A DNA stretch of 25,265 nucleotides from a virus: positions 1 through 25,265 of IMG/VR virus record IMGVR_UViG_3300031746_001596, one strand, 5' to 3'. The notes beneath the pieces were generated by a model. It was given only the letters and a program-made list of their open reading frames with translations. It was not told the origin of the DNA and did no database searches. Positions 3,372-25,265 of the stretch are shown one piece after another. Positions within the stretch are counted from its first letter, which is position 1; every line of letters starts with the position of its first letter. A program made the translations under genes and the position numbers.

Positions 3372-4433
3372 TCACTTCCACAGGATAATCTTCACATGGC
3401 GGTACTTAGCCACAATAACCCTGGCCAACCTGTTCTTAGAGACGGCAGCTATCCCCTGACGGTATTTGGTTGTAATCACTTCTCCGAGACGATTCCTTGC
3501 CGTGATAATCTGACCTGCACGGTACTTTACCGTGATAACGTAAAAGTCGTGAAATTTCCCATCCCAGTACCCAGGGATTCCCATAATCTGTTTCTGCTGT
3601 GGCAGATGTGGTATGTATTGGAAAAAACGTAATACGGCATAGAGCCTGGTATCCCGATTGCCCACAGGCGGGTTATCAGTTGGGGCTGACAAGGGCGCCC
3701 ACTTTGTCGGCTGCCCTGGCGGCCTTTCCAGAACACCACGCAAAGCGGCATACAGCCTAGTTACGAGGTTACCAACGGGAGGCTGGTCAACTGAATCAGG
3801 AGTCTGCTTTATCGGTTGTTTGGGTGGCTGGTATGGTATGTCTATGAAAGAGCGTATCGCTGTGTATAGCCTGGTCGCCAGATTGCTGACAGGCGGAGGC
3901 TGGTCAACTGACTCTGGCGTCCCTTTCTTCGGCTGCGCAGACGGCCATTCCGCAGCGGCACGCAAGGAAGCGTAGAGCCGACTAGCCAAGCCGACAACAG
4001 GAGGCTGGTCAACTGACTCTGGCGTCTGCTTCGTTCTCTTTTGCTGCAGGAACTGTATGTCCCAGGCGGAGCGCAGGGCAGCATAGAGTCTGGTCGCCAG
4101 ATTGCCAACAGGAGGCTGGTCAACTTGCTCAGTTCTTGGTAGCTTTGCCTGCCTCTGTTGTTGCGACGGTATGTCCCAGACGGAGCGTAAGGCAGCGTAT
4201 AACCTAGTGACTAGGCTGCCAATAGGCGGATTGTCTACTGGAGGAACTGCCTCAGCCGAGGCAGGTGTGCGTTTTGTTGGCTGCCTCGGCTGAATAGATG
4301 GCAAGTCCAGAACAGTACGCAACAAGGCATATAGCCTGGTCGCTAGATTACCCACGGGCGGGGGGTCCACCGAGTCGGGTACTTTCTTTGTCGGTTGACT
4401 CGGGTGAGGAGGCGGTATTCTCCAAATGGGCAT
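3372..4433 (-). CDS. Proline-rich helix-repeat protein with basic 10-residue-repeat tail
   Basis: I do not recognise this 353-residue protein. Residues ~12-275 contain seven imperfect repeats of about 36-43 residues. Each repeat is a Pro/Gln/Lys linker ending near TPESVDQPPVGN followed by an amphipathic helix, LATRLYAALRSAWDIP. After a linker (IPGYWDGKFHDFYV), residues 303-353 hold five copies of a 10-residue unit with alternating KYR and RNR/KNR openings (KYRAGQIITA, RNRLGEVITT, KYRQGIAAVS...). There is no signal peptide or membrane helix. It starts nine bases after the upstream stop. The low-complexity design suggests an extended virion component or a multivalent binding protein. Repeat copy number may vary between strains or be affected by assembly. 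Confidence 0.7.
   Translation of the reverse strand: MPIWRIPPPHPSQPTKKVPDSVDPPPVGNLATRLYALLRTVLDLPSIQPRQPTKRTPASAEAVPPVDNPPIGSLVTRLYAALRSVWDIPSQQQRQAKLPRTEQVDQPPVGNLATRLYAALRSAWDIQFLQQKRTKQTPESVDQPPVVGLASRLYASLRAAAEWPSAQPKKGTPESVDQPPPVSNLATRLYTAIRSFIDIPYQPPKQPIKQTPDSVDQPPVGNLVTRLYAALRGVLERPPGQPTKWAPLSAPTDNPPVGNRDTRLYAVLRFFQYIPHLPQQKQIMGIPGYWDGKFHDFYVITVKYRAGQIITARNRLGEVITTKYRQGIAAVSKNRLARVIVAKYRHVKIILWK
3375..3527 (-). repeat. Five tandem 30-bp repeats encoding a 10-residue basic motif
   Basis: Five consecutive 10-residue units (starting KYRAGQ, RNRLGE, KYRQGI, KNRLAR, KYRHVK) end the proline-rich repeat protein. Position 2 alternates Tyr/Asn, giving a 20-residue higher-order period. At each unit a hydrophobic pair (II, VI, AA, VI, II) falls at positions 7-8. 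The DNA repeats are diverged but in phase. Confidence 0.8.
3600..4400 (-). repeat. Seven imperfect tandem repeats of about 110-130 bp
   Basis: On the plus strand the array is visible as recurring blocks such as ggaggctggtcaactga and gcatagagtctggtcgcc. It encodes the Pro-rich linker plus RLYAALR helix unit. Linker lengths differ between copies while the helix core is nearly constant, so indels accumulate in the linker and selection holds the helix. Confidence 0.8.
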
Positions 4434-4976: not shown

Positions 4977-5654
4977 CTATTGAGAGAGTATATGAGGATA
5001 ATAAGAACCCTTTGGGAACCTTCCCCAATATACTCTATCATCCCATTCAACCCCATAAGGGACGTTTGATGGGCTTGAGAATGAGTTAGAAATGGTTGAA
5101 CTGAAACCTGTATGAAGATAGATTTTGGCCACGTTCTGGTCAGCACTTAATATATTTGTGCTATCCCAGGAAAGTCCAGTAATTACAGTTGACGGGCTTG
5201 AGAATGAGTTGGAGATGGTTGAACTAAAGCCAGTGTGGAGATAGATTTTGCTCGAGATATAATCACAACTTAACGCATTTATACCATTCCATGAGACATT
5301 AGTGCAACCGTTTGATGGGCTTGAGAATGAGTTGGATACAGTGGACGAGAAACCTGTGTGGAGATAGATTTTGGCCGAGTTCTGGTCAGCACTTAATATA
5401 TTTGTGCTATCCCAGGAAAGTCCACGAGGGGCGGTTGACGGGCCTGAGAATGAGTTAGAAATGGTTGAACTGAAACCTGTGTGAAGGTAGATTTTGGCCG
5501 AGTCAGCATCGGTACTCAGAACATTAGTTCCGTCCCAGGAGACCCCAGCTAGGCCAGTTGATGGGCTTGAGAATGAGTTAGAAATGGTCGAACTGAAACC
5601 TGTATGAAGGTAGATTTTATCCAAGCCGTCATCAGTGCTTAATACATTAGCCAT
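4977..5654 (-). CDS. Tandem-repeat protein, propeller-like 41-residue repeats
   Basis: The 225-residue product is five nearly identical 41-residue repeats, typified by TNVLSTDADSAKIYLHTGFS followed by STISNSFSSPST and GLSWDS, plus a divergent 20-residue tail (RVYWGRFPKGSYYPHILSQ). The first copy lacks its usual opening, so translation enters mid-repeat. The pattern of WDG/S-TN-hydrophobic-S-D then KIY recalls NHL/beta-propeller-like blades. The start ATG overlaps the stop of the glycosyltransferase gene by eight bases. Five or six blades could close a ring, but strand count is not provable here. Location among tail genes and beside glycan enzymes suggests a surface-exposed, perhaps carbohydrate-binding, virion protein; this is inference. 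Confidence 0.75.
   Translation of the reverse strand: MANVLSTDDGLDKIYLHTGFSSTISNSFSSPSTGLAGVSWDGTNVLSTDADSAKIYLHTGFSSTISNSFSGPSTAPRGLSWDSTNILSADQNSAKIYLHTGFSSTVSNSFSSPSNGCTNVSWNGINALSCDYISSKIYLHTGFSSTISNSFSSPSTVITGLSWDSTNILSADQNVAKIYLHTGFSSTISNSFSSPSNVPYGVEWDDRVYWGRFPKGSYYPHILSQ
4995..5654 (-). repeat. Five tandem 123-bp repeats with a recent 246-bp duplication
   Basis: The 123-bp unit encodes 41 residues and repeats in frame. Positions 5133-5178 and 5379-5424 are identical over 46 bp and lie exactly 246 bp (two units) apart, so a two-unit block was duplicated or converted. The segment encoding LHTGFSSTISNSFSSPS is nearly constant in all copies, while the flanks vary. Confidence 0.9.
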
Positions 5655-6999
5655 AGTTCACCATCAGGTCGTTGACTTCCTTAATGTCCAGACTCTTGAA
5701 ATGCTTGCACAACAGACCATAGTGGGTATAGAGTTTATAACCCAACTTCTGAGCCTGCTGTGAGAAGTAGAAGTCCTCGCTCAGAATCACCGTGCCATTG
5801 GCATGGTAAGTGAACGCAAACGGCCTATCCATCTTCTCATAGACCTCTCGTTTAACTAAGAACATCCCGCCTGTGATGACATCGGTTTCCTCAATCCCTT
5901 TGCCGAGATAAGGTCTATATTCTCCGTTCTCGGCGTATCTGTGTGCTACAGGCATGGGGAATCCTTGCCCCTTGTCATCTCTCTGCCACGCAAAGCACAA
6001 CGGAGAGATAATGTCTTTGTCTGCATTTAGCAGTTCTCTCAAGGTGTTCGGAGGCGGCACTATGTCGTTATCAATAAACAGCAGGTAATCGTAATAATCC
6101 TCAAGGAAGTCTTTGACACAGGTGTTGCGGGCATTGTCTAAGGGAGACAACCCCATCGGCATATTGAGATGAATCGCTACCTCTGGATCGTGTGTCCACT
6201 CAAGTATCCTGATTGCCAGTTCAGGGTGAATCCAGCCGTTGTTCGGTACGGCGATATAGACTCGGGGCTTCTGGTTGAGTTCCTTTTTCCACTTGCGTTT
6301 GAACAGGGAAAACACACTTGAGGAATACTTCCGTGAGTAGGCCACGTCATTGTGGAACAACTCTCTATAAGAAGCAGAGCCGTAGTGATAGATAAACGAT
6401 TTGCGGGCTATGACTGTTTTCCACCCGCCCAGCTTAATCCGCATACAGATGTCGTTATCCTCACCACCGCCCATCTTGAATTGCTCATCGAATAGACCTA
6501 TCTGGGTAAGTGCCTCCCGACTAAAGAGCATACATACCCCAGATACCTCATCACACCAACTGTAGTCTAAGCCCTCTCTGTTGTGGTCAACATGCTGGAG
6601 TCCTTGCGTTTCTGAGTATGTAGGGGCTACCAGACCAACCTTCTCATCCTGCTTAAAAGCCTTTAGCATCTCAGTCGTCCAGTTTGGCGTGGCAACTGTG
6701 TCCAGGTTCAAGACCATGATATACTCGCCCTTGGCCTCTGCGATGCCTCTGTTGACAGTCTTGGGGAATCCTAGAGCCGTCTCGTTGTATAGTATCGTGG
6801 CCTTGTACTGCTTCAGGAAGTCGAACTCGCCCTTGCCTACGCCATCGCAGACCAGGATAAACTCGTACTTCTCAGGTGTGTAGGCGATTATGCTGTCAAG
6901 ACAAACCCTGAGCAAGTCTGGCCTGAATCGGACAGGGATGATTATGCTAACTAAGCCTTCTTGCACAAAACCACCTTTATATCTGCTATTACATTCCAA
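5647..6999 (-). CDS. Two-domain GT-A glycosyltransferase (GT2 + second GT-A domain)
   Basis: The N-terminal half (residues ~15-235) is a GT2 family transferase: VSIIIPVRFRPDLLRVCLDS, the nucleotide-sugar segment VLNLDTVATPNW (98-101 as the DXD-like site), and GGGEDNDICMRIKLGGW. The C-terminal half (~246-440) is a second GT-A fold: RVYIAVPNNGW, FIDNDIVPPP with DND at 310-312, TGGMFLVKREVY, and SEDFYFSQQAQKLGY. It should transfer sugars from nucleotide donors in the cytoplasm; acceptors are unknown. The ATG used here overlaps the methyltransferase gene by 49 bases; a GTG at 6966 with AAAGGTGG four bases upstream is a credible alternative start and would keep both domains whole. It ends overlapping the repeat-protein start. 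Confidence 0.88.
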   Translation of the reverse strand: MECNSRYKGGFVQEGLVSIIIPVRFRPDLLRVCLDSIIAYTPEKYEFILVCDGVGKGEFDFLKQYKATILYNETALGFPKTVNRGIAEAKGEYIMVLNLDTVATPNWTTEMLKAFKQDEKVGLVAPTYSETQGLQHVDHNREGLDYSWCDEVSGVCMLFSREALTQIGLFDEQFKMGGGEDNDICMRIKLGGWKTVIARKSFIYHYGSASYRELFHNDVAYSRKYSSSVFSLFKRKWKKELNQKPRVYIAVPNNGWIHPELAIRILEWTHDPEVAIHLNMPMGLSPLDNARNTCVKDFLEDYYDYLLFIDNDIVPPPNTLRELLNADKDIISPLCFAWQRDDKGQGFPMPVAHRYAENGEYRPYLGKGIEETDVITGGMFLVKREVYEKMDRPFAFTYHANGTVILSEDFYFSQQAQKLGYKLYTHYGLLCKHFKSLDIKEVNDLMVNYG

Positions 7000-7478
7000 A
7001 AGTGCCTCATGGCAAATTCCAAATCATCTTTGGGGAATCCCCTGAACTCCTCCTCTATGACATAGGACACATCTTCAAGAATGAAATCGGCGTGTATCGG
7101 GTAGTGCTCAAGGTTGTTATCCTTGAGGTACTTCTTTGTGTAATAGAGAAAGGTCGCCTCTGAGATTGTCCTTTTATGAGTGGGGTCTTGCCACGCTCTT
7201 ACCGATGTATAGTAAGGGGCTACGAAGGTCACTTTCGCATTGGGTTTTAATATCCTGTAGACCTCATTCATAAACAAGACCAGGTCTGAGGTGTGCTCAA
7301 TGTAGTGGGAACACCATATCTCGTCTATGGAGTTATCCTCAAAAGGCCACGGGTGCTTCTCTAGGTCATGGCACACATCTGCTTGCGTGCCGACCAGGGT
7401 GATGTCCACTCCTAGATAGCCTGGGCGTTTGTTGTTGCCGCAGGCTAAATCTAGTCTCTTAGCAAACACAGTTGTCAA
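6951..7478 (-). CDS. Class I SAM-dependent methyltransferase (COG4627-like)
   Basis: The protein opens MTTVFAKRLDLACGNNKRPG: motif I (DLACGNN) at residues 10-16 binds S-adenosylmethionine, then GVDI ends strand 2, with IDEIWCSHYIEH (motif IV region) and a post-core YRILKPNAKVTFVAPYY. This is the small methyltransferase type found in surface-polysaccharide gene clusters. I chose the TTG at 7478 because a perfect AGGAGG stands eight bases upstream; an ATG at 7514 would add 12 residues with no function and deepen the overlap with the deacetylase gene from 20 to 56 bases. It lies between a deacetylase and a glycosyltransferase, so a sugar O-methylation role is likely, though not shown. Confidence 0.85.
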   Translation of the reverse strand: MTTVFAKRLDLACGNNKRPGYLGVDITLVGTQADVCHDLEKHPWPFEDNSIDEIWCSHYIEHTSDLVLFMNEVYRILKPNAKVTFVAPYYTSVRAWQDPTHKRTISEATFLYYTKKYLKDNNLEHYPIHADFILEDVSYVIEEEFRGFPKDDLEFAMRHFWNVIADIKVVLCKKA

Positions 7479-7944
7479 TATCGCACCCTCCTGAGATAAA
7501 GCTAAACTCTCCATTCTCTATCCCCTCCAATGACTTATCGTAGATATGGGTGTTGATAATATCTCCCTGCTGGAATGTACCCTTTAGCGGTTGTATTCTG
7601 AATTGATGAGCGATAAAGCTAAACCCCAACTCTCTCAGTATTGGGTAGGTTGAGGCGGTCATCTGGAATCCAGGTGCTCGGAAGCCGAACCGCTTGGGTA
7701 GATATGGCCTGAGAGCTTCCAGCCCTTTCAGGATATAGTCCCACTGGTTAGCCCTCTCGCACTCTGGCGGGTAGGTATGCTCCCAACCGTGCACACCCAC
7801 CTCTACCCAGTACCTCAAGAGGTACTGACCTGCATCCTTGCCCATCACGAAGCAATTTACTTTCAAGTTTGGAACCTTCTCCCTTAGTCTTTCCAGCTTA
7901 TAGAACTCTGCCTCATTCACGTCGTCACAAATCAGGAAGGTCAC
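7459..7944 (-). CDS. Short polysaccharide deacetylase (NodB-like)
   Basis: This 161-residue protein carries the NodB-fold landmarks: an N-terminal strand ending in an acidic pair (TFLICDDVNEAEF), the metal-binding histidine motif VGVHGWEHT (H-x3-H), and GFRAPGFQ (R-x-P motif). These enzymes remove N- or O-acetyl groups from polysaccharides using a divalent metal. It is shorter than the usual ~200-270 residues; the C-terminal strands (IINTHIYDKSL) remain. The start is GTG, overlapping the upstream stop in a GTGA, so translation is coupled. In the cassette it could edit a glycan made or modified by the neighbouring transferases, or the host envelope. It has no signal peptide, so it should act in the cytoplasm. 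Confidence 0.82.
   Translation of the reverse strand: MTFLICDDVNEAEFYKLERLREKVPNLKVNCFVMGKDAGQYLLRYWVEVGVHGWEHTYPPECERANQWDYILKGLEALRPYLPKRFGFRAPGFQMTASTYPILRELGFSFIAHQFRIQPLKGTFQQGDIINTHIYDKSLEGIENGEFSFISGGCDIDNCVC
7487..7492 (-). promoter_or_regulatory. Ribosome binding site AGGAGG deciding a TTG start
   Basis: A perfect AGGAGG lies eight bases before TTG (7478) of the methyltransferase gene, inside the end of the deacetylase gene. It supports the non-ATG start. Confidence 0.75.
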
Positions 7945-8351
7945 TTAATTCCCATCCTCGTTTTCACCTTGTCAATGAACCTCACCCTGTACTGTATTCC
8001 AGGCGTGGAGTCTGCGGGGTCGAGTGCCTTCAAGTCTGTGGAACTTAATGCGACACCTGCCTTTGCTTTTATTTCCATCGCCCTGACTATGCCCTCATCT
8101 GTGACTTCCGTATTGCGGGGGTCATGCTTGTCAACAAAAGTTCCCGCATCGAGCACAGTCAATTCCTCCACATCTTTCATGTCGGTAATCTTGTCCAGGT
8201 TCTTGTCTTCTATCAGGACGATAAGCCAGCATATTCCTGTTTCCAACTCGTCACAGTAAATATGCTCCAGGCAGCTAAACGTCAAAAAGCCCTCGGGGTA
8301 ACTCATGTTCCCCTTTTCGTCTGCACGCACCCTGATTTTTAGCAGTTTCAT
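7941..8351 (-). CDS. Phage protein of unknown function, head-tail region
   Basis: I do not recognise this 136-residue protein. It begins with strand-like segments (MKLLKIRVRADEKGN, FLTFSCLEHIYCDELETGICWLIVLIED), then a mixed central part (DMKDVEELTVLDAGTF) and a basic C-terminus (YRVRFIDKVKTRMGIK). It has no membrane segment. AAGGAG lies six bases before the ATG. It sits directly after the putative connector gene and its stop overlaps the deacetylase start, so it marks the join between structural genes and the sugar cassette. A small head-completion or tail-terminator role is possible from position alone. Confidence 0.6.
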   Translation of the reverse strand: MKLLKIRVRADEKGNMSYPEGFLTFSCLEHIYCDELETGICWLIVLIEDKNLDKITDMKDVEELTVLDAGTFVDKHDPRNTEVTDEGIVRAMEIKAKAGVALSSTDLKALDPADSTPGIQYRVRFIDKVKTRMGIK

Positions 8352-8382
8352 GCTTTCTCCTTAGCTTCCAAGTTTAATCTGA

Positions 8383-8982
8383 TTAGAATTGGTCGCTGTT
8401 CGCCTGTCTCTGCCTCGCCATCTTCTTGATGTCCGCCCTGAAGATACTTAGTTCGTTCATTGCCCACTGGAGCATCTGGCTAGCCACATTGCCCCCACCT
8501 TGATTGACCTCGTTGATATGCTCCCTGGCCTTAGATGCTGCCAGACTTGCGCATGTGCCGCGTATCAAGAGTTGTTCCAGGTTCGCCCCCAGGGTTGAGC
8601 TGCTGTTTGTGACGGCGTGCAGCTTGCGGCAATAGGCATAGGCGCTTTCGGCTATGCTCGGCTTTGTATCCCCTCCCAGCGTCAACGTGGTGCCCCACGT
8701 GGTGAAGGGAATGAACCCCCTCGGGTCACCCCCCACCGGATACTCTACTCGTTCCACGCTCATCAAGTCGGTGACAGTCGCCAGGGATATGTCCCGTGTC
8801 GCTGCAACAGTGGTGAGCGTTTCCTTTGTCTCATAGGGCACATGAGCCGAGATTTCCTCCAGGATTTGCTGAATGTGAACGTCTATCTCATCGTCCTCCC
8901 ACTCAGGCGTCGTGCTAACGACAATTTCGTCCCGTAGCTTTTGCCTCACTATCTGCCTGATCGCCGCGATATATCTAGCCAT
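8383..8982 (-). CDS. Putative head-tail connector/adaptor protein
   Basis: The 199-residue protein is helical at both ends: ARYIAAIRQIVRQKLRDE and EIDVHIQQILEEISAHVPY at the start, then a beta segment (RDISLATVTDLMSVERVEYPVGG, TTWGTTLTLGG), then long helices (LEQLLIRGTCASLAASKAREHINEVN, MLQWAMNELSIFRADIKKMARQRQ). This layout, with helices first and a DxxI/xxxL-type bundle, is seen in gp6/gp4-like head-tail adaptors of about 150-220 residues that bind the portal. It follows the coat protein (with cassette genes between) and precedes tail genes, which fits. A strict family match cannot be claimed without a profile search. Confidence 0.6.
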   Translation of the reverse strand: MARYIAAIRQIVRQKLRDEIVVSTTPEWEDDEIDVHIQQILEEISAHVPYETKETLTTVAATRDISLATVTDLMSVERVEYPVGGDPRGFIPFTTWGTTLTLGGDTKPSIAESAYAYCRKLHAVTNSSSTLGANLEQLLIRGTCASLAASKAREHINEVNQGGGNVASQMLQWAMNELSIFRADIKKMARQRQANSDQF

Positions 8983-8997
8983 AATCGTCCCCCCTTT

Positions 8998-9204
8998 CTA
9001 ACGCAGTGGCTGCCCCGGGCTGGCTGCTGCAGCAGGTGGCTGGCTTCCCTGCACCTTTGCCCCGCAGTAGTCTGCCAGGGTCTTCTCATCCATTTCATTC
9101 GCCATCTTCGCGGCCTCGGCGCTGTAGGAAGGGTCGGTCTCGCCGCGCTTAATGGACAGGGCTATGCACATCAATTTGCGCTGGTTCTCACTCGTACTGG
9201 GCAT
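8998..9204 (-). CDS. Small QRxLM-motif phage protein
   Basis: A 68-residue protein opening MPSTSENQRKLMCIALSIKR with SYSAEAAKMANEMDEKTLADYC. This matches the pattern of short phage/bacterial proteins that begin S-x-x-Q-R-x-(L/F)-M and end in a helical A-K-x-M-x-x-(K)-x-L-x-(D/F) segment (DUF3008-like in look). The C-terminus is a disordered Pro/Ala tail. Its stop shares one base with the next ATG (TAATG). The function of these small proteins is unknown; they often lie among virion genes. Confidence 0.7.
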   Translation of the reverse strand: MPSTSENQRKLMCIALSIKRGETDPSYSAEAAKMANEMDEKTLADYCGAKVQGSQPPAAAASPGQPLR

Positions 9205-10403
9205 TATCTACCTCCTACCATTACTGGATTTCTTACCTGATACCCCGGGAACGACTCCAAAAGGTCGTAATCTAACTCATCGGTGCGGCAGATCACCAGG
9301 CCATATCTATAGTCCGCATAGTCAAAATCCCTCTTGTGTCCTTTTGCGGTGACTTCCTTATCAAATTCTGTGTGGGGAAAAGGGCAAGCATAAACCCAGC
9401 CCATGTGCTCGGGCATCAAGTCATAGATTAAAGCCTGGGTTTCCTGTAGGCTTTCAAGGTTCTCTCCGGGCATCCCCACTATGAAACTGGCCTGCGTCTG
9501 CATTCCGTAACGATGTGTCAGGCTGAAGGCTCGCTTTATCTCCGGGACGGTGATGCCCTTCTTCATGTGATCAAGCAATCGCTGACTTCCCGATTCGACT
9601 CCGTAAAAGATATTCCAGACTCCGGCTCTTCTTGCCATTTCCAGGAAGGGTTCAGTCACAAGTTTCTCATTCACCCTGCAAGCCAACTTGAAGACCATCT
9701 TGTTGTTAAGGCGGCGCCGTATGATTTCCTCAAATATCCCGTTTGCCCATCCGTGATTGAGGTTAAAGGTGTCATCCTGAAAGAAGACCTCGGCTACCCC
9801 GAACCGCTTGTTCAGGTATGCAACCTCATCTACAACCAGAACCGGGTCTCGATACCTTACCCTGCGCCCCCAGAAGAGAGGCGTATTACAGAAAATACAG
9901 CCGAAGCCGCAGCCCCGTGAGCTCATCATCATCATGCTGGGTATTCCGCCTATGGGGAAGACGCCGCTGAATCTCACCGGGTTTATCAGGTCGTAATCAA
10001 CCATGGGCAACTCATCAAGGCTATTGATTCTCCGGCTCGACCCCAGATACTCAAGCCATTGATTGTCGCCCTCTCCGATTACAACCTTGTCTGCTTCCCC
10101 GTCCCATACCACAGCATGAGGACCGCCCACGACTATGCGAATGTCTCGGCTCACCTCTCTGATCTGCTTTGTTACCTGTCGGGCAGACCGTACCTGGAAG
10201 GTGTTGACGGTGAGTCCCACTATGTCCGCTTTGAACTCCTTGACCTCGGCGGCCATATCAACCTTATCAATGTCCAAATGCAGGACCTTAACCTTGTGGC
10301 CTTCCTGTTCAGCCAGAGTGCCCAGGGTTAGCAAGGCGCGGCTTGGTGCCTCGCAGTAAGGGTGATGCCAATTCATTTCAGGTTGCACAAGTATTATGTT
10401 CAT
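9204..10403 (-). CDS. B12-binding radical SAM enzyme
   Basis: Residues 1-~120 form a cobalamin-binding Rossmann domain (MNIILVQPEMNW, ADIVGLTVNTFQ, IVVGGPHAVVW, VVIGEGDNQWLEYL) without the DxHxxG His ligand, as usual in this class. The radical SAM domain follows, with SSRGCGFGCIFCNTP giving Cys 165, 169 and 172 (C-x3-C-x2-C) for the 4Fe-4S cluster, then FFQDDTFNLN, FYGVESGSQRLL and QASFIVGMPGE. Members of the B12-radical SAM class methylate or rearrange unactivated carbons, in anaerobic or low-oxygen cells. AGGAGG lies upstream of the ATG. It sits between a GT4-methyltransferase fusion and a small phage gene. The substrate is unknown; a sugar, lipid or peptide target is possible. Confidence 0.92.
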   Translation of the reverse strand: MNIILVQPEMNWHHPYCEAPSRALLTLGTLAEQEGHKVKVLHLDIDKVDMAAEVKEFKADIVGLTVNTFQVRSARQVTKQIREVSRDIRIVVGGPHAVVWDGEADKVVIGEGDNQWLEYLGSSRRINSLDELPMVDYDLINPVRFSGVFPIGGIPSMMMMSSRGCGFGCIFCNTPLFWGRRVRYRDPVLVVDEVAYLNKRFGVAEVFFQDDTFNLNHGWANGIFEEIIRRRLNNKMVFKLACRVNEKLVTEPFLEMARRAGVWNIFYGVESGSQRLLDHMKKGITVPEIKRAFSLTHRYGMQTQASFIVGMPGENLESLQETQALIYDLMPEHMGWVYACPFPHTEFDKEVTAKGHKRDFDYADYRYGLVICRTDELDYDLLESFPGYQVRNPVMVGGR

Positions 10404-10407
10404 ATCA

Positions 10408-11961
10408 TCACCACGATATGAGACCGTCCCCTGAAGCTACAACGGAATACTTTATCCCCTGCACAACCTTATGGTCAGGGTCAATTCTGAAGTTGGAATT
10501 AGCCGGCGTGCTGAACAGGATTATCCCGTGATTCGCTACCCTCTTGGCCTCCGCTACAACCTGCCTCGGGTCCCGGGCATGTTCCAGCATCTCAGAGCAC
10601 CATACAAATCCGAACTCCTTTGTCTTGAAGGGCAGGTTGTGCGCATCTCCCTGCACAACATCAGGCCCGGGCTTAATATCGAAGCCCACATATTCGCCCA
10701 GGTGTTCCAGCACCTTCTTATAGGGCTGAGTGATACCGCAACCCAGGTCAAGGACTTTCCGGGGCACACAAGACTGAGGCACAAATAGCAGACGCCATTG
10801 CTGTATCCCTTCAAGGTTCTTGGGCTGCTTCAATCGCTTCTCAATATCATCAAGCACCTTGGGCCAGTATTCGGCATATACCTTGTCGTCATCGTACTCA
10901 AGTGCCTTCTCCCTGGCCTTGGTTTTCTTGTCCTGGATAGAGCCATCTTTCCATGCCTGGTATGCCTGCTCTAATCGTTCAGCGACTTCCTCAGCATCGC
11001 ATTCAAACTGCCACGAACCTTGCCCAGTCCAGACCTTTCTCAAGCCATTGATAAGCCATCCCCCGCCGACCAGCTCGGGTTGTGCCGTGCAGTTTGTGGT
11101 AATCACCGGCACTTCGCAGGCTTGAGCCTCAACCAGGGGGATACCAAACCCCTCGCCCTTGGAGGGCAGAAGGAAGACATCCATGACGTTATATGCCCTG
11201 GCGAGGACATCACGCGGTATGCCGATTATCATCTGGGCTAGGGAAGGAAAGAAAACAACCTCTTCCAGGTGTAGATTTTCTCTCAACTCCACCAGGTTTA
11301 TGCCCCGTTCATCCCCGGGGTGAGTGTGGCAATAGTACCTGATCTCCCCCGGGTGCCTGTCTGCCAGTATCCTTGCAGCCTGAAAAGACGTAGACCAGTT
11401 CTTGCGTTCGGAGTGATTTGTGGCTACAGTTCCTATAACAAATTTGTCCTGCCACTTGTAGCGCTCCCGCCCAGTCTTTCGGGCTTCCGCATCGGGGCTA
11501 AACAGTTTGGTATTAACCGAGTGAGGAATGTAATAGCAGTCAATACCGCTTTTGGCGACCTCCATAACCCCATATTTAGACATGGCTATGGGCTTCACAA
11601 TGCCCGGTGATTTCAGTGCCTTGATTATCAATGGCGGGCATGGGGTGTGGTCTACCGGGAACCAGGGACACCAGGGCAAAGTCGGGTCCATGTCGCCTAG
11701 TACCCACACATCCACGAGGGTTATCAGAAGGTCAGCCTGAAAATCCTTGAAGAAATCAGGGGCTAATTTAACGCCCCAGTCGTGTTTCGGATTCGGATAG
11801 ATGGGCATACCAAACCAGTCGAGCTTCGAGCCATCGAGACCATAGAAGGCGAAGATACCCATATCATGCCCCATGCCTTGAAGACGGGCGCAGGCTGTCG
11901 CTGTCTGCATCCCATACCCCGTGGCTGCGAAGGGACTATTGGAAGACCATAAGATACGCAT
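10408..11961 (-). CDS. GT4 glycosyltransferase fused to class I methyltransferase
   Basis: Starting at the ATG at 11961 the protein is 517 residues. Residues ~1-370 are a GT-B, GT4 family transferase: MRILWSSNSPFAATGYG, a second Rossmann part from KFVIGTVATNHSERKNW, and the EX7E catalytic signature in GEGFGIPLVEAQACEVP. Residues ~402-517 are a SAM methyltransferase: KVLDLGCGITQP (motif I), VGFDIKPGPDVVQGDAHNLPF, and FVWCSEMLEH. The methyltransferase domain is shorter than usual and may be truncated at the C-terminus. I set the start here rather than at an in-frame ATG 69 bases upstream because the added N-terminus (RPGKLRERGGAPLPSPH) is non-conserved and spans a hairpin. AAGGAG lies three bases before it, after A8. 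Confidence 0.88.
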   Translation of the reverse strand: MRILWSSNSPFAATGYGMQTATACARLQGMGHDMGIFAFYGLDGSKLDWFGMPIYPNPKHDWGVKLAPDFFKDFQADLLITLVDVWVLGDMDPTLPWCPWFPVDHTPCPPLIIKALKSPGIVKPIAMSKYGVMEVAKSGIDCYYIPHSVNTKLFSPDAEARKTGRERYKWQDKFVIGTVATNHSERKNWSTSFQAARILADRHPGEIRYYCHTHPGDERGINLVELRENLHLEEVVFFPSLAQMIIGIPRDVLARAYNVMDVFLLPSKGEGFGIPLVEAQACEVPVITTNCTAQPELVGGGWLINGLRKVWTGQGSWQFECDAEEVAERLEQAYQAWKDGSIQDKKTKAREKALEYDDDKVYAEYWPKVLDDIEKRLKQPKNLEGIQQWRLLFVPQSCVPRKVLDLGCGITQPYKKVLEHLGEYVGFDIKPGPDVVQGDAHNLPFKTKEFGFVWCSEMLEHARDPRQVVAEAKRVANHGIILFSTPANSNFRIDPDHKVVQGIKYSVVASGDGLISW

Positions 11962-11980
11962 ACACTCCTTTTTTTTATGA

Positions 11981-12009
11981 GGAGAGGGGAGTGGTGCGCC
12001 TCCCCTCTC
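11981..12009 (-). promoter_or_regulatory. Ten-pair hairpin between coat and GT4-methyltransferase genes
   Basis: Arms 11982-11991 and 12000-12009 pair (about ten base pairs, eight-base loop) in the short gap between the two genes. On the minus strand it is followed by CTCATAAAAAAAAGGAG, so an A-tract not a T-tract; it is not a standard terminator. It could shield the coat mRNA end from exonucleases or lower translation of the next gene. Confidence 0.55.
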
Positions 12010-12035
12010 TCTCAGTTTACCTGGCCTCAATAGGC

Positions 12036-13145
12036 TTAGTTGGTGCTATCAACGAACCTGGCCGCCAGTTTGGCATCAAGCGTCTTGACTCCACAGAGTA
12101 GGTCTATGGAAATCAAGTTCTGCTTGGTCATCATCGTGTAATCGTAAACTACACGAGCACTTAACCCCTTGTACTCCAGGACTGCCGCACCAGCTCCGCC
12201 GATGGGAGGAGCCAGGGGCGCAGTCACCAGGGCAAAGGCGTTCTTGTGGAACGCTAGGTTCGCCTTGTGCGTCTTGGTGAAGTTCACTACGGACGTGGTG
12301 GCAATCACCCGGTCTGCCACCGGCGTGAAGACCACCGTGATAGTCGCTGCGCTGGCAGTAGCGTTTGTGGTCACAACACCCCAGACTGGATAGCCGGTAA
12401 TTTTGAAGCAGTCCCCTGCGAGAACTGTTCCACCGCTGGTTATCGCGTCAATGGTTGCTGTGCCATCGCCTACAGCCAGAGCGCCTTTCATAGCGCCTGT
12501 TACGTCAGCCATGTCCCCGCCGGTGTGGGTTTTGATGTTCTGATCCATATAGAAGTCCATGCCCATCACTCGCCCCATGTGAGCTTCCTTGATTGCATCA
12601 GTGCTACCCTTCTTGTCTGCGTGCAGGAAAGCGTCGAGCGAGACATAGGCTGCTTCAGTGGATGGATGCAGAACACATCTCCGGTCTTCCATCGGAGCCC
12701 CGTTGAGGTTGAGCACTTCTCTCAGGTGTGCTATATCGGCAGCAACGGCGGTAGATGTTACCGTGTAGAAATTCGGTATATCTACATATAGTGCTGCCAG
12801 ATACGCATCGATAGCCTGCGCGTGTGCCCTCATCGCTGGCTGAATCAACTGCTCGCTGAAGTCCACTATAGTCAACGAGAGTTCCTGGGACGAGACGTTG
12901 AACGTAACATCCAGGTGCTTGTCCAGCACAACTGCCACGCTGCTCTCAGTCGCCGTGCTCAAGTTCACCGTGTTGGATACGGTCGTGGACGTGAACGTGG
13001 TCGGTTTCCGCACAATTACGGTAGAACCGATTTTCTTGTATTCCTTCGAGTAGTCTCGGTGCACCAATCCTGCCAAGACTAAGTTGTTTTCCAACACTAT
13101 CAACGCCTCTTTAGCGATGATAGTTGGAGTTAAGTATGTTCCCAT
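12036..13145 (-). CDS. Major capsid protein, P22 coat-like (HK97 fold)
   Basis: The 369-residue protein follows the P22 gene 5-like coat pattern: an N-terminal arm with LTPTIIAKEALIVLENNLVLAG, the beta-rich region GSTVIVRKPTTFTSTTVSNT, LDVTFNVSSQELSLTIVDFSEQLIQPA, the spine helix AHAQAIDAYLAALYVDI, and near the end KNAFALVTAPLAPP followed by GLSARVVYDYTMMTKQN. This is the HK97-fold capsid subunit that assembles with the scaffold encoded just upstream. It includes an insertion domain of Thr/Gly/Ala-rich strands (ATIDAITSGGTVLAGDCFKITG), as in P22-type coats. AGGTGA precedes the ATG; the gene starts four bases after the scaffold stop. Confidence 0.9.
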   Translation of the reverse strand: MGTYLTPTIIAKEALIVLENNLVLAGLVHRDYSKEYKKIGSTVIVRKPTTFTSTTVSNTVNLSTATESSVAVVLDKHLDVTFNVSSQELSLTIVDFSEQLIQPAMRAHAQAIDAYLAALYVDIPNFYTVTSTAVAADIAHLREVLNLNGAPMEDRRCVLHPSTEAAYVSLDAFLHADKKGSTDAIKEAHMGRVMGMDFYMDQNIKTHTGGDMADVTGAMKGALAVGDGTATIDAITSGGTVLAGDCFKITGYPVWGVVTTNATASAATITVVFTPVADRVIATTSVVNFTKTHKANLAFHKNAFALVTAPLAPPIGGAGAAVLEYKGLSARVVYDYTMMTKQNLISIDLLCGVKTLDAKLAARFVDSTN

Positions 13146-13149
13146 TTAG

Positions 13150-13848
13150 TCACCTGCCTTTTTTTTGCTTGTCGCGGTAAGTTTTGTACTCATCCATCGA
13201 CATCTTTTCTAATTGTTCTTGGGTAGGTTCCCCACCACCTCCGACACTCAACCCGGAATCAGTAACCAGACCTTCGCCGGTCCTGTTCCCTTTGCTGGCT
13301 GCCAATCTCTCAGCCACCTTGTTGAAGCGGGCGGGGTCGGTGATCCCCAGGTCTTCCAATTCTTGCTCCAATGCTTCCACGCTGACCTTGTGGGATACCG
13401 CAGTCTCGGCAATCCTCGCGCCTACTGAGACCTTCGCAATCTCCCTCTCCATAGCAGTCAGAGTTACCTCTTTCTGCGTCAATGCCTGTTCCTTCTGAGC
13501 CAGGGCTTTAGTCTTCTTCTCAATGTCCTTTTGATTCTGATAGAGTTTCAACAGCCCCGGGTCGCCCTTGACCTTGGAGAGTTCGGCATCTTCGATTCTG
13601 GCCTTGACCGCTTCAAGTTCCTCAGCGAGAGAACCCTGTGCTTTTGAGAGATCATCCTTTTCACCGGAGAGCCTATCAATAAGCCTTTTCTGCTCGGCAA
13701 TAGTCTTGTCCAGCGTGGAATGCCTCTCATTCACCAGTTTTTTGACCTGTTCCTCCGTGAATGTCTTTGGTGTTGAAGGCTCCTGTTTCTCGGCAGAAGA
13801 CTGTCCCCCTTCGGGAAGAGCGTCCTGCTTTGTTTCCTGAGCATCCAT
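13150..13848 (-). CDS. Capsid scaffold protein
   Basis: The 232-residue protein is mostly charged coiled coil (residues ~28-150: EEQVKKLVNERHSTL, EKDDLSKAQGSLAEELEAVK, KDIEKKTKALAQKEQALTQKE) between a disordered acidic N-terminus and a Gly-rich spacer. It ends with a short basic helix (MSMDEYKTYRDKQKKGR), the C-terminal coat-binding element typical of tailed-phage scaffolds. It directly precedes the P22-like coat gene, as expected. AGGAGG nine bases before the ATG and a nearby A6 tract predict strong translation. A transcription terminator stands just upstream, so its expression may need antitermination. Confidence 0.9.
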   Translation of the reverse strand: MDAQETKQDALPEGGQSSAEKQEPSTPKTFTEEQVKKLVNERHSTLDKTIAEQKRLIDRLSGEKDDLSKAQGSLAEELEAVKARIEDAELSKVKGDPGLLKLYQNQKDIEKKTKALAQKEQALTQKEVTLTAMEREIAKVSVGARIAETAVSHKVSVEALEQELEDLGITDPARFNKVAERLAASKGNRTGEGLVTDSGLSVGGGGEPTQEQLEKMSMDEYKTYRDKQKKGR

Positions 13849-13876: not shown

Positions 13877-13910
13877 CAAAAAGGGCGGTTCCCTTGCGGG
13901 ATTCCGCCCT
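13877..13910 (-). terminator. Intrinsic terminator before scaffold gene
   Basis: Minus-strand stem AGGGCGG/CCGCCCT (13882-13888 with 13904-13910), with an inner TCCC/GGGA stem, is followed by TTTTTGATTAAT. It lies between the giant gene/plus-strand gene block and the scaffold gene. Unless read through, it would cut capsid-gene transcription. Confidence 0.82.
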
Positions 13911-13912
13911 CG

Positions 13913-13931
13913 TTGACGATTGTGGTATAAT
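13913..13931 (+). promoter_or_regulatory. Extended -10 promoter for the plus-strand membrane gene
   Basis: TGTGG-TATAAT (TATAAT at 13926-13931) matches the TRTGnTATAAT extended -10. TTGACG stands seven bases upstream, too close for a normal -35. A start seven bases past the hexamer falls on position 13938, the A of the ATG. Confidence 0.7.
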
Positions 13932-13937
13932 TAAGCT

Positions 13938-14279
13938 ATGAAAATGTGGGCTGCAATCTTTGTCTGCGTTGCCTTGTTCCTGACTGTCTTGGGTCTATGG
14001 CTCTATCAGTCCTATCACTATGGTAATGGTGTCACAACTTGCCAACAGACTGACGATTACGAATGCTATCTCGACAGGGCTTGTGGTTATGTAATGGACT
14101 GCCATACTGTACAGCCCCCTATGCCATTCTGGGCTAGTTTCCTGCGAAGATGGTCTCCCCTTACTATAGTGGGTCTAGCGATTCTCTCCCTCATACTATG
14201 TGTCTATAAATTCGATTTGAATAACAAGTTCACTGGAAGCCGTTATGACCGATGGCCTCAACCCCCTGTTGACCAATAA
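13938..14279 (+). CDS. Plus-strand two-helix membrane protein (moron candidate)
   Basis: This 113-residue protein is the only clear plus-strand gene. It has an N-terminal membrane helix (residues ~4-24, WAAIFVCVALFLTVLGLWLY), a 40-residue loop with four cysteines (35, 43, 49, 55), and a second helix (~72-91) ending in a charged tail with a proline-rich end. The four loop cysteines could form two disulfides outside the membrane. I see no homologue by eye. No ribosome site precedes the ATG; instead the predicted transcription start is the ATG itself, suggesting leaderless translation. It sits convergent to the giant gene, AT-richer than its neighbours. Superinfection exclusion or lysogenic conversion are plausible but unproven. 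Confidence 0.7.
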   Translation: MKMWAAIFVCVALFLTVLGLWLYQSYHYGNGVTTCQQTDDYECYLDRACGYVMDCHTVQPPMPFWASFLRRWSPLTIVGLAILSLILCVYKFDLNNKFTGSRYDRWPQPPVDQ

Positions 14280-14290
14280 CCACATTCTAA

Positions 14291-17200
14291 TCACACTAGC
14301 GGGGATGTCATATCACCGAATGGTTCGGATTTGGGCCAAGGGAAAGAGTCATTGATGGGATACTTATAAAAATACTCCCCTATATTGATGCCTTTCGGCA
14401 CAGGAAGTTCAAGAGTCTTGGTTGATTCAATCGCCCCAGGGCCATGAATTCCTGAAAATTCAATCAAGTAGCCCGAAAGTTTAGCACACAACTTGACAGT
14501 TGTTTCTAGTCCAATCTTTTTTGCTAGTTCAATGAATTTGTCTGAAGATATGAGGTCTTTAAGGCTCAAATCCTGTTCGTTGTAGAACTCATCAAGGCGG
14601 CCATAAACTTCGTCAGCAATGCGATCAGGTTTTCCTACATACCAGTCATGATCTTCTGGGAAATAATAGGCTATTTCACCTTCTTTGGGCTGTCTCTGTA
14701 GGGGAGGAATCTGTTGCTCCTGAGAAGTTACATTACCCTCGCCAGGAACATCCGTTTCCGTTAATGACATCTTTTCCAGCGTCTGCGGCCCCTGTACCTC
14801 TATCCCCTTGCTCACCAACTTGCTCCACTTACCCACCAACTTGCCCCATACATCCAAAGCACGGTTCTCTATCCTGAACTCCACCCTGACCTTGCCCAGG
14901 GGAAGCGTGTTATATTCCTCGTAAAGTGCCCAGACAGCCTTTGTCGGCACCTTGCTGAAGTGTTCCTTGCTGTATGTTTCTTCGGATATCAACTTCGCGG
15001 CTTTCGCTGCCTCGAAGAAGTCCCCATGCTCCTGAAGATACCAGTCGTCCTCATAGTCTTTGAAATCAGTCTGTCTCCACTCCACAAAGGTGTCAACCTG
15101 TGCCTCGGGAAGTTCAGCTTTATAGGCGGTTATCCTGATTCGGTCAGCGTCATACTCAGGATTCGCAGCTAGATAACTCTGGCGTGCCTCATCTGTGGTC
15201 AAGGCGCTGTACTCCGCCTCCTGAGTCCTATCCTTGACCTGCAACTTCAGGACGTTGATGTTAGGCAGTTCGCCATTCTTGTCTGTTAAATCCCTCCCTG
15301 TCCAATTAAGGTACTTCTTATTCTTGGGGTCTAGGAGATAGAGTTTGGCCTCGGCTGTATTGCTAAAGCCTGCCCCATATTCGGCAGACATCTTGTTATA
15401 CTCGAATTCAAATGGTGCTATCTCCTCAGGTGGCAAGCCCGTGATTCGGCTCAATGGTATCCCCAGTTCATCGGCCTCTTTGACCAGGATGTCGTAAGCC
15501 TCTTTAGTCTGGATGTTCTGCCTATAGCCCCAGAGCACCAGCAGGGCGTCAGCTTGAGGATTGTTTGTCAGGTAATCCGTTCTTGCTGTCTTCTCGTCTG
15601 AGGTAGCATAGGGCAGTTTCCAGTACTCATTCAGCAGGTCTTTATCGTCTGCCAGCCTCACAAAGGTGGGATTCAATCCCTCCCTCAGCTTTTTGTCTGA
15701 GTACATCTTCTTGATAAGCTGGTAAACATCCTCACCCCACGTATCTTTGAACTCCTGCACTGCAGCGTCTTTAGCGTCCCAGTCCCACTCCCCCTGTGCA
15801 TCAAGGTAATCGCTGAACATCACGGCTTGATAGTCCTGCAAGGCCAAATCCATGTACTGAGAATCTTTACTGCCATCAGCTTGAGAAACTTCGAGTTCGT
15901 CATAAATGGCTTTGTAGACAGAAGACCTTTCAATCTGGCCTATGGAGATGCCGTACATCTGGCCCGCGTCACTCCACGACTCGCGCATGGCCTTTGTGTC
16001 TTTGTCTCCAGCCAGTAACTGCTTCCAGAGTTCATCGCCACGCGTATAATAGATAGTCTTGTCATCGGCCATATCGGCAGTCCAGCTTTTCCATAGGTCG
16101 CTGTCCCTCTTCTTGGAATCATCCAGGGCAAGGTTGTATTTGGCCGTCAGGTCGGGATAAAGCATCTTCAACTGTTCTTGCAATAGTTTGGGCAGGTTAG
16201 CCCACCCCAGAGTCCCGTTGTCTCTGGCCTCCAAGTATTTCGGCAGTTCCTCGGCAGAGGTATATTGAGCCATCATATCGTCGGTAATCCTGGCTATCAG
16301 GGGCTTGGCAGCATCGTAGAACTTAGTCCACAAGAAGTCGGGGTTCACCCTCAAGCCCAGAATTTGCCCGATAGGGGTTGCAATCTTGGCTAATGTCCCT
16401 TCGGGCACTTCGTATTGCTCCGCCAGCTTGGGGATAAGCGGGTTTATTCCCCCCTCCATCCAGATAGGCTCCATCAGACTCAGGACATACTTCCCGAACT
16501 GGGCGGGGGACTCAAGAGGATCACCCAAAAAATACGGATTCTTGCCCACCAAGGAAGATACTGCTCCCACCAACGGCGAGGACCTGTTATACCACCACTG
16601 AACGAGGGGGTTATCCCTGTCCAGAGCGAGGAAGTCAGTCCTTTTATTTCCTCCCGTCTCCTGTAAGGATTGGCCTATATTGCTTGCCAGTGAGGTCAGC
16701 CCATACCAGAATCCGCCAAACCCGAAGTTGTAATTCCCTATAGGCAAGGTCATAAATGTGCTTGAGGTCTTCCACGACCAGTCCCCTGTAATCGGGTCCT
16801 GCACGAATCCGAACCCTGCCAGCATCCTATCCATCGCCTGCTCATCGGTAGCACCTTCCAGCAGCGCCATGGAATAGACCGTAGCGCTGTAGAATGCCGC
16901 ACCTGCCCCTAACATGCCTCCCAGCGCCTTCCGTGCCTCTGTCCCAGTCATACCGCCCCTGAATATATCGGCCAGTAGTGTCAAGCAACTCCTTGTGTAG
17001 TTAGGGGCAAACCAGGCGAAGGTCTGCTCTAACTGCCGGGCAGTAAGCGGCACCATGCCAGCCCGAGAATCAGCGAGTCCAGTCAGCCTATCCAGGAACT
17101 GAGCCAACTCAATCTCTTTCCCCTGTGCTATCGCCTTGGGTGACATGATCTTCCAGAACTCATTTCTGACAACCTCGCCTCCAGCGTAGAAAGATTGGTT

Positions 17201-20200: not shown

Positions 20201-20983
20201 GGGTCCTATGTAGACGACACTGTACCCTTGCTCGCTCTTGTCCGGGGTAAGTTTGACAAACCATCCCTCCGGTATCTCTATGCCCTTTACCAGAGCCTGC
20301 TCAGGATTCAAGACTTCGGGCATAGTGAGGAAAGGATACTGAATAGTGCCAGGTTGACCAAGATACTCAGGCGTGATGGTAGGTGAAATTCCAGTCGCCT
20401 TCTTAGCCTCTATGCCCGACTGTTGCTCATAGGCTGCCATGGTGTATTGGATGCCATACTTGCCCACTTCTTTAAAAAAGGTCTGCCAGTCAGGGGCTTT
20501 GGCCTGTAGGCCGTACATGGTGAGGTTGCTGATCATACCCTGATAGGCTCGGGCTGTATCCCCTGGTTGGCCTGCGAATCCCTGAGCTAGGGCTTCTTGG
20601 AGGGGGAGATACTGAGAATTCCAGGCTTCTACACCGACTGGGGAAGGTTGTTTGGTGATGGGGTCTGGTGCAGCCACAGGTGCAGGAGCCGCTACTTCTT
20701 GGGGTACTGTTCCAGCCTTAAAGAAGGTGCCGCCACGTGCTACCTGCGCATCATATGTCGTTTTGAGATTAGCGATTGCTCCGTAGGGGTTAACATCGAT
20801 TCTGCCTCGATATGCAGAAATAGTCTCCACATTCGGAGCATCCGCCATAACCTGAGTAAAGATGTCAGCGGCATCATTCCAGAATTGTGCATCACCAGGG
20901 AAACTGTTTTGAGCAATCCTGCGATAATAGTTCGCAATCTCTTGCACCGCTAGTTGAACATCAGTTAGTGTCTCGGTCGTCAT
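14291..20983 (-). CDS. Giant virion-associated protein (LPD38-like region), possible ejection protein
   Basis: The protein has 2230 residues. Residues 305-473 hold three diverged ~50-residue repeats, each ending near PGITDAQIHQIF, PGMTAPQKDWMF or PGITDEDINTIY. Residues ~598-690 are hydrophobic/amphipathic (TTTALSFLNPVYLIPVGG...). Residues ~1140-1440 (FERANQSFYAGGEVVRNEFW, TFAWFAPNYTRSCLTLLAD, FMTLPIGNYNFGFGG) resemble large polyvalent protein-associated domains of the LPD38 type. Residues ~1790-2050 contain four diverged repeats around YLTNNPQADALLVLWG. The last ~160 residues are encoded by visibly AT-richer DNA. Lying between portal and scaffold, it may be packaged and ejected with DNA. No polymerase, MuF or lysozyme motif is identified; function is inference. 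AAGGA lies three bases before the ATG. Confidence 0.7.
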   Translation of the reverse strand: MTTETLTDVQLAVQEIANYYRRIAQNSFPGDAQFWNDAADIFTQVMADAPNVETISAYRGRIDVNPYGAIANLKTTYDAQVARGGTFFKAGTVPQEVAAPAPVAAPDPITKQPSPVGVEAWNSQYLPLQEALAQGFAGQPGDTARAYQGMISNLTMYGLQAKAPDWQTFFKEVGKYGIQYTMAAYEQQSGIEAKKATGISPTITPEYLGQPGTIQYPFLTMPEVLNPEQALVKGIEIPEGWFVKLTPDKSEQGYSVVYIGPDKSEVPEGQLFQDEAGVWLTPTEVTARQAASDKLDELTGLVAGALPDKDKTNILQWAQENPEEYANALAAEGQNPQTEVLLRYTVPGITDAQIHQIFNPSTVPTLDQQALVARAMEVWPDKSIEEVLDYATNSRDAFLKDIAAFGYTPATETLLSQIFPGMTAPQKDWMFKTDTEKVAWLEETGKLGVQRNEVVKTAIPGITDEDINTIYGNLSLASAKSPIDSGFGPQQESGVYNWGDTTMPLGGLKPVSGGDLLAPFKDALGILNKYVDRPWEVAVMQAQASLNLVSGVLGQGMVGQVDPLDDAVTKKLQENRDKYGFWGALVSEDVPDIWNDFAATLPGGKFTTTALSFLNPVYLIPVGGSFGLAAKFTSKIPIIGESLMKIAGGVQAIEKGVGEILIVAPIKGAAKYTGKALEAVGKEIGDVAVAQLIKDSGHLLPLMELPSNEKLLTELLAPNWMRTVVQTAAKVPAIKTGIEVSLGKRILIEQGVKDVENAMGQSAVIKGAIDRMGVDAASLKVNELAAPISDDRGFFGFTDNAYSEMMAKRILPEYKAAAEAAGPEAAAQFGTLEHIFQKPDMYDWTGIEQGLTYIERVKEVNQKVTALLIKEGVDPKVVTEDYLKRIVEGYTDTETGKFIPVKGQPGIKSTSLGGKPAYEMHRQFETMADGIAAGYRYGQSMRTSTSAYIQEAFRKIGDERALTEMSSQLGKLGMAPRTVKEIVAGQYPDLVAKWGAIKTEAGALGKAQALVNQAIRGENIPGQTIDALKRLGVEIPFGGTPVTRSLGERLETALALTGQNRTSALRDLSADIKQAIGSRNPTWYQTRGELTAKTELARQPTLTEGYIRQAFAGGKKYDQEAIDAFNKFFGYTPGRPELQATADIAGVLRLTKASLDFSAMSIQGLPSWGLAHATLLSDPATGVKMLGEWYKAYGYSIRAFFDPETLSKYIAKDIDSEMGRIAATGSSRVVDYFSALEARTGLGGLAEKGLSKIPLKPFERANQSFYAGGEVVRNEFWKIMSPKAIAQGKEIELAQFLDRLTGLADSRAGMVPLTARQLEQTFAWFAPNYTRSCLTLLADIFRGGMTGTEARKALGGMLGAGAAFYSATVYSMALLEGATDEQAMDRMLAGFGFVQDPITGDWSWKTSSTFMTLPIGNYNFGFGGFWYGLTSLASNIGQSLQETGGNKRTDFLALDRDNPLVQWWYNRSSPLVGAVSSLVGKNPYFLGDPLESPAQFGKYVLSLMEPIWMEGGINPLIPKLAEQYEVPEGTLAKIATPIGQILGLRVNPDFLWTKFYDAAKPLIARITDDMMAQYTSAEELPKYLEARDNGTLGWANLPKLLQEQLKMLYPDLTAKYNLALDDSKKRDSDLWKSWTADMADDKTIYYTRGDELWKQLLAGDKDTKAMRESWSDAGQMYGISIGQIERSSVYKAIYDELEVSQADGSKDSQYMDLALQDYQAVMFSDYLDAQGEWDWDAKDAAVQEFKDTWGEDVYQLIKKMYSDKKLREGLNPTFVRLADDKDLLNEYWKLPYATSDEKTARTDYLTNNPQADALLVLWGYRQNIQTKEAYDILVKEADELGIPLSRITGLPPEEIAPFEFEYNKMSAEYGAGFSNTAEAKLYLLDPKNKKYLNWTGRDLTDKNGELPNINVLKLQVKDRTQEAEYSALTTDEARQSYLAANPEYDADRIRITAYKAELPEAQVDTFVEWRQTDFKDYEDDWYLQEHGDFFEAAKAAKLISEETYSKEHFSKVPTKAVWALYEEYNTLPLGKVRVEFRIENRALDVWGKLVGKWSKLVSKGIEVQGPQTLEKMSLTETDVPGEGNVTSQEQQIPPLQRQPKEGEIAYYFPEDHDWYVGKPDRIADEVYGRLDEFYNEQDLSLKDLISSDKFIELAKKIGLETTVKLCAKLSGYLIEFSGIHGPGAIESTKTLELPVPKGINIGEYFYKYPINDSFPWPKSEPFGDMTSPLV

Positions 20984-24983: not shown

Positions 24984-25265
24984 TCATTTTCTCCTCGCAT
25001 CCTCTTTCATCCAATGGATAGCCCAATCGATTACCTGTGCAATATCCCGCTCTACCGTGCGCTCATGGCAGCCTAGCAGTTTACCGATCTCCTCATAGCT
25101 TTTGCCGTGAAACAGATAGAGCCGAGTCGCCTTGTGTTGGCGGTATCCCGACTCCTGGCTGGCCTCCGTCATGTAGAACAGCACTTCCAGCATATTGGTG
25201 AAGGCTGGGGTAAGTTCTGAACCTCCGCCTCGCGTCATGGACATGGTATCGGTTTGGTGTCCCAT
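24984..25265 (-). CDS. Sigma region 4-like HTH regulator (ArpU/RinA-like), start at window edge
   Basis: The 93 visible residues end in a sigma-70-region-4-like helix-turn-helix: ATRLYLFHGKSYEEIGKLLGCHERTVERDIAQVIDWAIHW (residues 46-86). The recognition helix is CHERTVERDIAQV. The N-terminal ~24 residues (TMSMTRGGGSELT) look disordered, followed by a helix. Small proteins of this type, the ArpU/RinA late regulators, lie just upstream of the small terminase and turn on late genes; some phage late activators act by antitermination. The ATG is the last base triplet of the window, so the true start may lie further right. A terminator follows. Confidence 0.72.
   Translation of the reverse strand: MGHQTDTMSMTRGGGSELTPAFTNMLEVLFYMTEASQESGYRQHKATRLYLFHGKSYEEIGKLLGCHERTVERDIAQVIDWAIHWMKEDARRK

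Follow-up and report, generated by a model that had tools for sequence, protein, structure and literature searches.

An antisense membrane-protein gene behind a predicted near-leaderless promoter in a putative exchangeable cargo slot of a phage that encodes a P22-type coat protein

Background

The sieA gene of phage P22 is located between genes 16 and 9, has its own promoter, encodes a small membrane protein and is convergent with the ejection gene 16. Types of SieA are about 25% identical to one another yet have similar helices, and mutations that allow escape from SieA are found in the C-terminal regions of ejection proteins (PMC10883804). Other extra genes, such as the morons gp15 of HK97 and Ltp of TP-J34, also have their own promoters and separate genes that are neighbours in related phages; they are of deviant base composition and encode membrane or surface products. 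The MuF polymorphic toxins of temperate phages, which are associated with immunity proteins, are large proteins encoded between portal and scaffold, with an exchangeable C-terminal tail beside a small gene. Leaderless mRNAs are produced from cI of lambda and PY54, and from cro of PY54. In the prophage defence loci of Sbash, CarolAnn and Butters, a variable slot encodes a membrane protein, read in Sbash from its own promoter (PMC6426606).

Here, a small antisense gene, ORF113, is described in a window of 25,265 bp that comprises the whole IMG/VR record of an uncultured phage. It was compared with related records, principally L002, which is approximately 85-98% identical to the window over nearly its whole length. 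The relevant features are:

12036..13145, minus strand, P22-type coat protein gene (Pfam P22_CoatProtein, 3.5e-48)
13150..13848, minus strand, scaffold-like gene with a strong Shine-Dalgarno sequence, the next late gene past the slot, assigned by position, coiled composition and conserved order
13878..13911, minus strand, late-strand intrinsic terminator separating the giant gene from the scaffold gene (hairpin 13881-13911, U-run 13878-13882)
13923..13931, plus strand, predicted extended -10 promoter TGGTATAAT, identical in L002
13938..14279, plus strand, ORF113, 113 aa, antisense to the late operon; L002 has a homologue in the corresponding position
13941..14776, no strand, block exchanged between the window and L002
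14291..20983, minus strand, giant late gene of 2230 aa between portal and scaffold

Comparison with described systems

Of the described arrangements, that of sieA comes closest: here too a gene for a small membrane protein, with a predicted promoter of its own, converges on a late gene, the stop codons of ORF113 and the giant gene being 11 bases apart, as against the 22 bp gap between sieA and its late neighbour. Alleles that are about 25% identical and similar in topology are a further point in common. Both phages have a P22-type coat protein, but the position of the slot relative to the coat gene differs, and the giant gene only probably encodes an injected protein, whereas gene 16 of P22 is an ejection gene. 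SieA has three helices, as opposed to two in both alleles of ORF113, and sieA has a leader with a Shine-Dalgarno sequence, which ORF113 does not. As ORF113 also shows no similarity to SieA sequences and does not contain the motif FxRYPxEAxxFNK, it was rejected as a SieA homologue.

With the morons of HK97 and TP-J34, ORF113 shares several characteristics. It has a putative promoter of its own, conserved in L002 and with analogues in a more distant clade; it stands between two genes that lie side by side in relatives, five of which have an empty slot (L015, L016, L017, L023 and L024); and its GC content of 46% deviates from the 52% of the window, that of the adjoining giant-gene tail being 43%. 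It is unlike them in that prediction yields no plus-strand terminator from 14279 to 14944, so that the ORF113 and late transcripts probably overlap, and in that the near-leaderless promoter appears to stay in place while the coding part is exchanged. The locus resembles those of Sbash, CarolAnn and Butters in its variability and its membrane protein, but ORF113 is a lone gene for a protein of two helices, in a phage that may be lytic, whereas these systems consist of a four-helix protein and a cytoplasmic partner (PMC6426596, PMC6426606, PMC7542560). Like the leaderless mRNAs of lambda and PY54, the ORF113 transcript is predicted to begin on the AUG behind a strong -10; unlike them, it does not encode a repressor, and the predicted leaderless promoter is common to unrelated coding sequences. 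The similarity to MuF toxins lies in a giant protein that is encoded between portal and scaffold and has an exchangeable tail, with a small gene next to it, although the small gene here is antisense and, in one clade, not tied to the tail.

Results

Organisation of the late operon

All late genes are on the minus strand, in the order terminase, portal, giant, scaffold-like and coat, followed by further head, glycan-type and tail genes. No family match to the giant protein could be found in Pfam, PHROGs or NCBIfam, nor was a MuF or toxin domain found in it. Behind the coat gene (5647-12030), glycosyltransferase-, methyltransferase- and radical-SAM-like genes can be read from the sequence among the late genes. 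Two further late genes, at 3372-4433 and 4977-5654, encode repetitive proteins with PPVGNLATRLYAALR-type and KIYLHTGFSSTISNSFSSPS-type repeats, and the gene at the window edge before the terminase (24984-25265) has a sigma-70 region 4-like DNA-binding domain.

The late-strand terminator folds at -21.4 kcal/mol (z = -4.1). The original prediction placed it at 13877-13910 and had late RNA traversing ORF113 in antisense before ending there; a strong minus-strand hairpin is indeed present at 13878-13911, and late RNA would cross the gene before terminating at it. However, a hairpin with a U-run is found between the giant and scaffold genes of L002, L016 and L024 as well as in the window. Because similar hairpins occur in relatives without an antisense gene, the terminator belongs to the late operon, and it was rejected as a component of the moron. 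In several relatives the hairpin and U-run directly precede the Shine-Dalgarno sequence of the scaffold gene, and it is possible that they control the expression of scaffold and coat within the late operon.

The ORF113 protein

ORF113 is the sole plus-strand ORF of more than 80 aa in the window that does not lie mostly inside minus-strand genes, as anticipated by the description of a lone gene opposing the operon. The two hydrophobic membrane helices that had been proposed are also predicted here, at residues 4-22 and 74-92, with a loop of about 50 residues between them. Four loop cysteines (C35, C43, C49 and C55) had likewise been pointed out; they exist in ORF113 but are not conserved, being missing from the L002 homologue, and hence no weight is placed on them. 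An AlphaFold model based on two sequences only (pLDDT 76, pTM 0.49) consists of a helix, a beta-hairpin and a helix. Nothing significant was retrieved with ORF113 from Pfam, PHROGs, NCBIfam, PADLOC, tblastn in phages, PDB sequences or two fold searches, and these family, sequence and fold searches gave no relation to any exclusion protein. The family is known from just two alleles, those of the window and L002, and none of the slot protein families occurs outside these phages in the collections searched.

Promoter and translation start

Six bases separate TATAAT from the ATG at 13938, so a start seven bases after the -10 would fall on the A of the ATG, as originally predicted. The sequence TGNTATAAT occurs once in the window, against 0.54 occurrences expected under a first-order random model; the same model gives an expectation of 0.04 for occurrences followed by an ATG 5-7 bases later. 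This promoter has no -35 element, the candidate TTGACG at 13913 having been rejected for its 7-base spacing to the -10. An upstream start codon for ORF113 is ruled out by an in-frame TAA at 13932-13934. The suggestion that the gene has no ribosome site also holds: it is the only gene in the window without a Shine-Dalgarno sequence. Just AAG precedes its ATG, at a distance of two bases, whereas each of the other 19 listed genes with sequence upstream shows a match of at least four bases. A chance ORF and a chance promoter were both rejected on the strength of the conserved promoter, the protein homology described below and the expected counts. At the level of the DNA, the promoter motif with its spacing, the missing Shine-Dalgarno sequence and the antisense position are evident, and leaderless initiation and translation of ORF113 would be consistent with them. 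Scans of IMG/VR with promoter patterns returned known phages only, plus four chance matches with no frame behind them.

Exchange of the coding sequence

The alignment of L002 with the window has two gaps, at 13941-14776 and 20651-20950. The latter falls in the region that encodes the N-terminal part of the giant protein and is a second island lacking DNA similarity. The former begins right behind the ATG of ORF113 and ends within the giant gene, and throughout it the DNA of the two phages is entirely different, while the flanks are 97.5% identical beside the promoter and about 91% identical on the other side. L002 is the same as the window from the promoter through the ATG, after which dissimilar DNA encodes a protein of 111 aa. 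This protein is 27% identical to ORF113 and has the same two-helix layout: an N-terminal helix, a loop of about 50 residues in which YLDR is common to both alleles, and a second helix at approximately residues 74-94. The similarity is detected by phmmer (E = 2.6e-5 in the L002 record) and by Smith-Waterman local alignment, which gives a score of 69 compared with 31 ± 5.8 for shuffles preserving the composition of each segment, none of 2000 reaching 69; BLASTP with composition adjustment does not detect it. The two alleles are thus homologous, and a protein only 27% identical within 97% identical flanks implies exchange rather than drift.

The last 160 or so codons of the giant gene (14291-14776) are inside the exchanged block, and hence differ between the window and L002 along with ORF113. 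The tail of L002 (L002:3913-4830) is a longer replacement with a HEIAHWYQ zinc-protease-like motif and no Pfam match.

Slot contents of other relatives

A second clade (L004-L014), with coat proteins 61% identical, has a slot gene wherever the record covers that part, always antisense. In L004, L007 and L010-L014 it encodes an 81-aa protein with three predicted helices, and in L005, L006 and L008 a 72-aa protein with one; these are unrelated small membrane proteins. Comparison of L004 with L011 reveals nine synonymous codon changes and one nonsynonymous change in the 81-aa gene (dN/dS about 0.03), and dN/dS for the 72-aa gene is about 0.16 between L005 and L006, which shows these to be real proteins under purifying selection.

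The promoter predicted in this clade has the form TTGACA/T-N17/18-TATTTT-N8/9-ATG, placing the ATG 0-3 bases behind the predicted transcription start, so that there would be little or no leader. Up to the last base of the promoter, L004 and L006 match at 99.3%, and past that point they show no similarity, L006 having one extra G before its ATG. L004 and L011, by contrast, have the promoter and gene in common but not the sequence just upstream, and all that L011 and L006 have in common there is a 22-bp island from the -10 region to the ATG. These breaks imply that the promoter is a joint in both directions, and together with the comparison of L002 they show exchange of the slot at the promoter.

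The tail of the giant gene behaves differently in this clade. The small gene of L004 and L007 is the same (99.5% identical), yet the tail is extended in L004 alone; L006 combines a slot gene with an unextended tail. A strict pairing of membrane gene and giant tail was therefore rejected for the 61% clade, and a fixed pair is not general. In L004 (L004:3900-4800), the codons for the shorter giant C-terminus, which in L007 encode AYGTDRCSE, seemingly persist beyond the stop codon of that extension, which points to insertion of the tail.

Where no antisense gene is present, the slot can be empty or otherwise occupied. In L024, one of the five phages with an empty slot, the giant gene stops nine bases before a short late-strand ORF. 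The slot of L003 contains a tRNA-Met (CAT; L003:4805-4879) and short forward ORFs. A conserved micro-ORF of 32-37 aa (KRDGSG[KR]GVRANRGRGGC) with a Shine-Dalgarno sequence is found on the late strand in the slots of L024 (7209), L025 (434) and L011 (4949, +); that of L011 adjoins the antisense membrane gene.

Discussion

As judged from sequence comparison, the locus appears to be an exchangeable cargo, or moron, slot with a near-leaderless promoter, flanked on one side by the giant late gene and on the other by the scaffold gene, in a phage that has a P22-type coat. The function that we tentatively favour for ORF113, at somewhat short of even confidence, is superinfection exclusion through an action like that of P22 SieA, though without membership of that family. 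Host RNA polymerase would read the gene from its own extended -10, starting on or beside the AUG, and by virtue of this promoter ORF113 would be expressed separately from the late operon. The protein would be a two-helix hairpin embedded in the cell membrane, its loop presumed external, and would most likely block the entry of DNA from competing related phages. Recombination between phages would exchange the coding part of the slot, with the conserved promoter and ATG at the joint. The topology of ORF113, the timing of its expression, the exclusion of other phages and the ejection of the giant protein are all suggested by this reasoning, and that the giant protein is injected at all is a guess from its position.

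The original prediction was that of a prophage moron, on in the lysogen and off when the late genes run. Independently transcribed, (near-)leaderless cargo in a variable slot fits what is observed, but the restriction to lysogens does not find support. The carriers L002 (28.5 kb), L010 (27.9 kb) and L011 (37 kb) yielded no tyrosine integrase, nor did seven records yield a large serine recombinase, although the records may be incomplete; a Pfam scan of ORFs in L002, L011, L016 and L017 identified methyltransferases, ERF and a DnaB-like domain, and tyrosine integrases in the L016 and L017 records only, in both of which the slot is empty. An equally good fit would be a lytic phage in which the promoter acts early or constitutively. 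It nevertheless remains conceivable, if rather unlikely, that ORF113 is expressed in lysogens and protects or alters the host for the benefit of the prophage, by abortive infection through an ion channel or by a change to the envelope, as with Sbash, CarolAnn and Butters. A membrane protein with its own promoter, antisense to the late genes in a variable slot, would suit such a role, the distant relatives with integrases might be cited in its favour, and prophage genes with leaderless mRNAs exist in the cI of PY54 and lambda (PMC4488713). Against it stand the three longest carrier records, which are without integrase, the integrase-bearing relatives, which are without the gene, and the lack here of any visible gene for the cytoplasmic partner of the cited systems.

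Other functions have less to recommend them. The joint replacement of ORF113 and the giant tail in L002, the protease-like motif of the L002 tail and the position of the giant gene, occupied in the related phage Keanu by a MuF-like minor capsid gene, would all fit ORF113 as the immunity partner of an effector tail, the two travelling as a single cassette. This seems improbable given the independence of slot gene and tail extension in L004, L006 and L007 and the failure to find a toxin or MuF domain in the giant protein; furthermore, immunity genes are usually on the same strand. A part in lysis or its timing, as a holin, antiholin or spanin-like membrane protein, is very unlikely: the protein is small with two helices and matches an Rz-like spanin profile very weakly (E = 0.09), but the late operon has its holin-like membrane genes at the opposite end (171-625), ORF113 is antisense to the late genes, and the slot proteins of relatives are unrelated and vary in helix number. 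Finally, as no plus-strand terminator is predicted, the transcript would enter the giant gene in antisense, and the functional product might be an RNA directed against the 3' end of the giant message, the frame being incidental. This is scarcely credible, since the L002 allele is homologous as a protein though its DNA differs, and since strong purifying selection acts on the slot protein of the sister clade.

Conclusions

Exclusion by a membrane protein encoded in an exchangeable slot is thus our preferred reading, and a bolder extension of it, speculative and on balance doubtful, can be envisaged. The near-leaderless promoter may be a fixed exchange joint for any small membrane-protein frame, forming a slot for interchangeable exclusion proteins that are partly matched to the injected giant protein's exchangeable tail. 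As neither a leader nor a ribosome site would be needed, a frame recombined behind such a promoter would be expressed at once.

Phage cargo genes are thought to move whole, with promoter and terminator included. In the two phage clades studied here, the promoter is instead retained up to the start codon while the sequence behind it changes. A leaderless start would ease such refitting, as the promoter alone would carry everything that expression needs. This would provide a simple and testable rule for how phages refit their accessory genes, and reading the frames behind such promoters in environmental phages may offer a route to new exclusion proteins.
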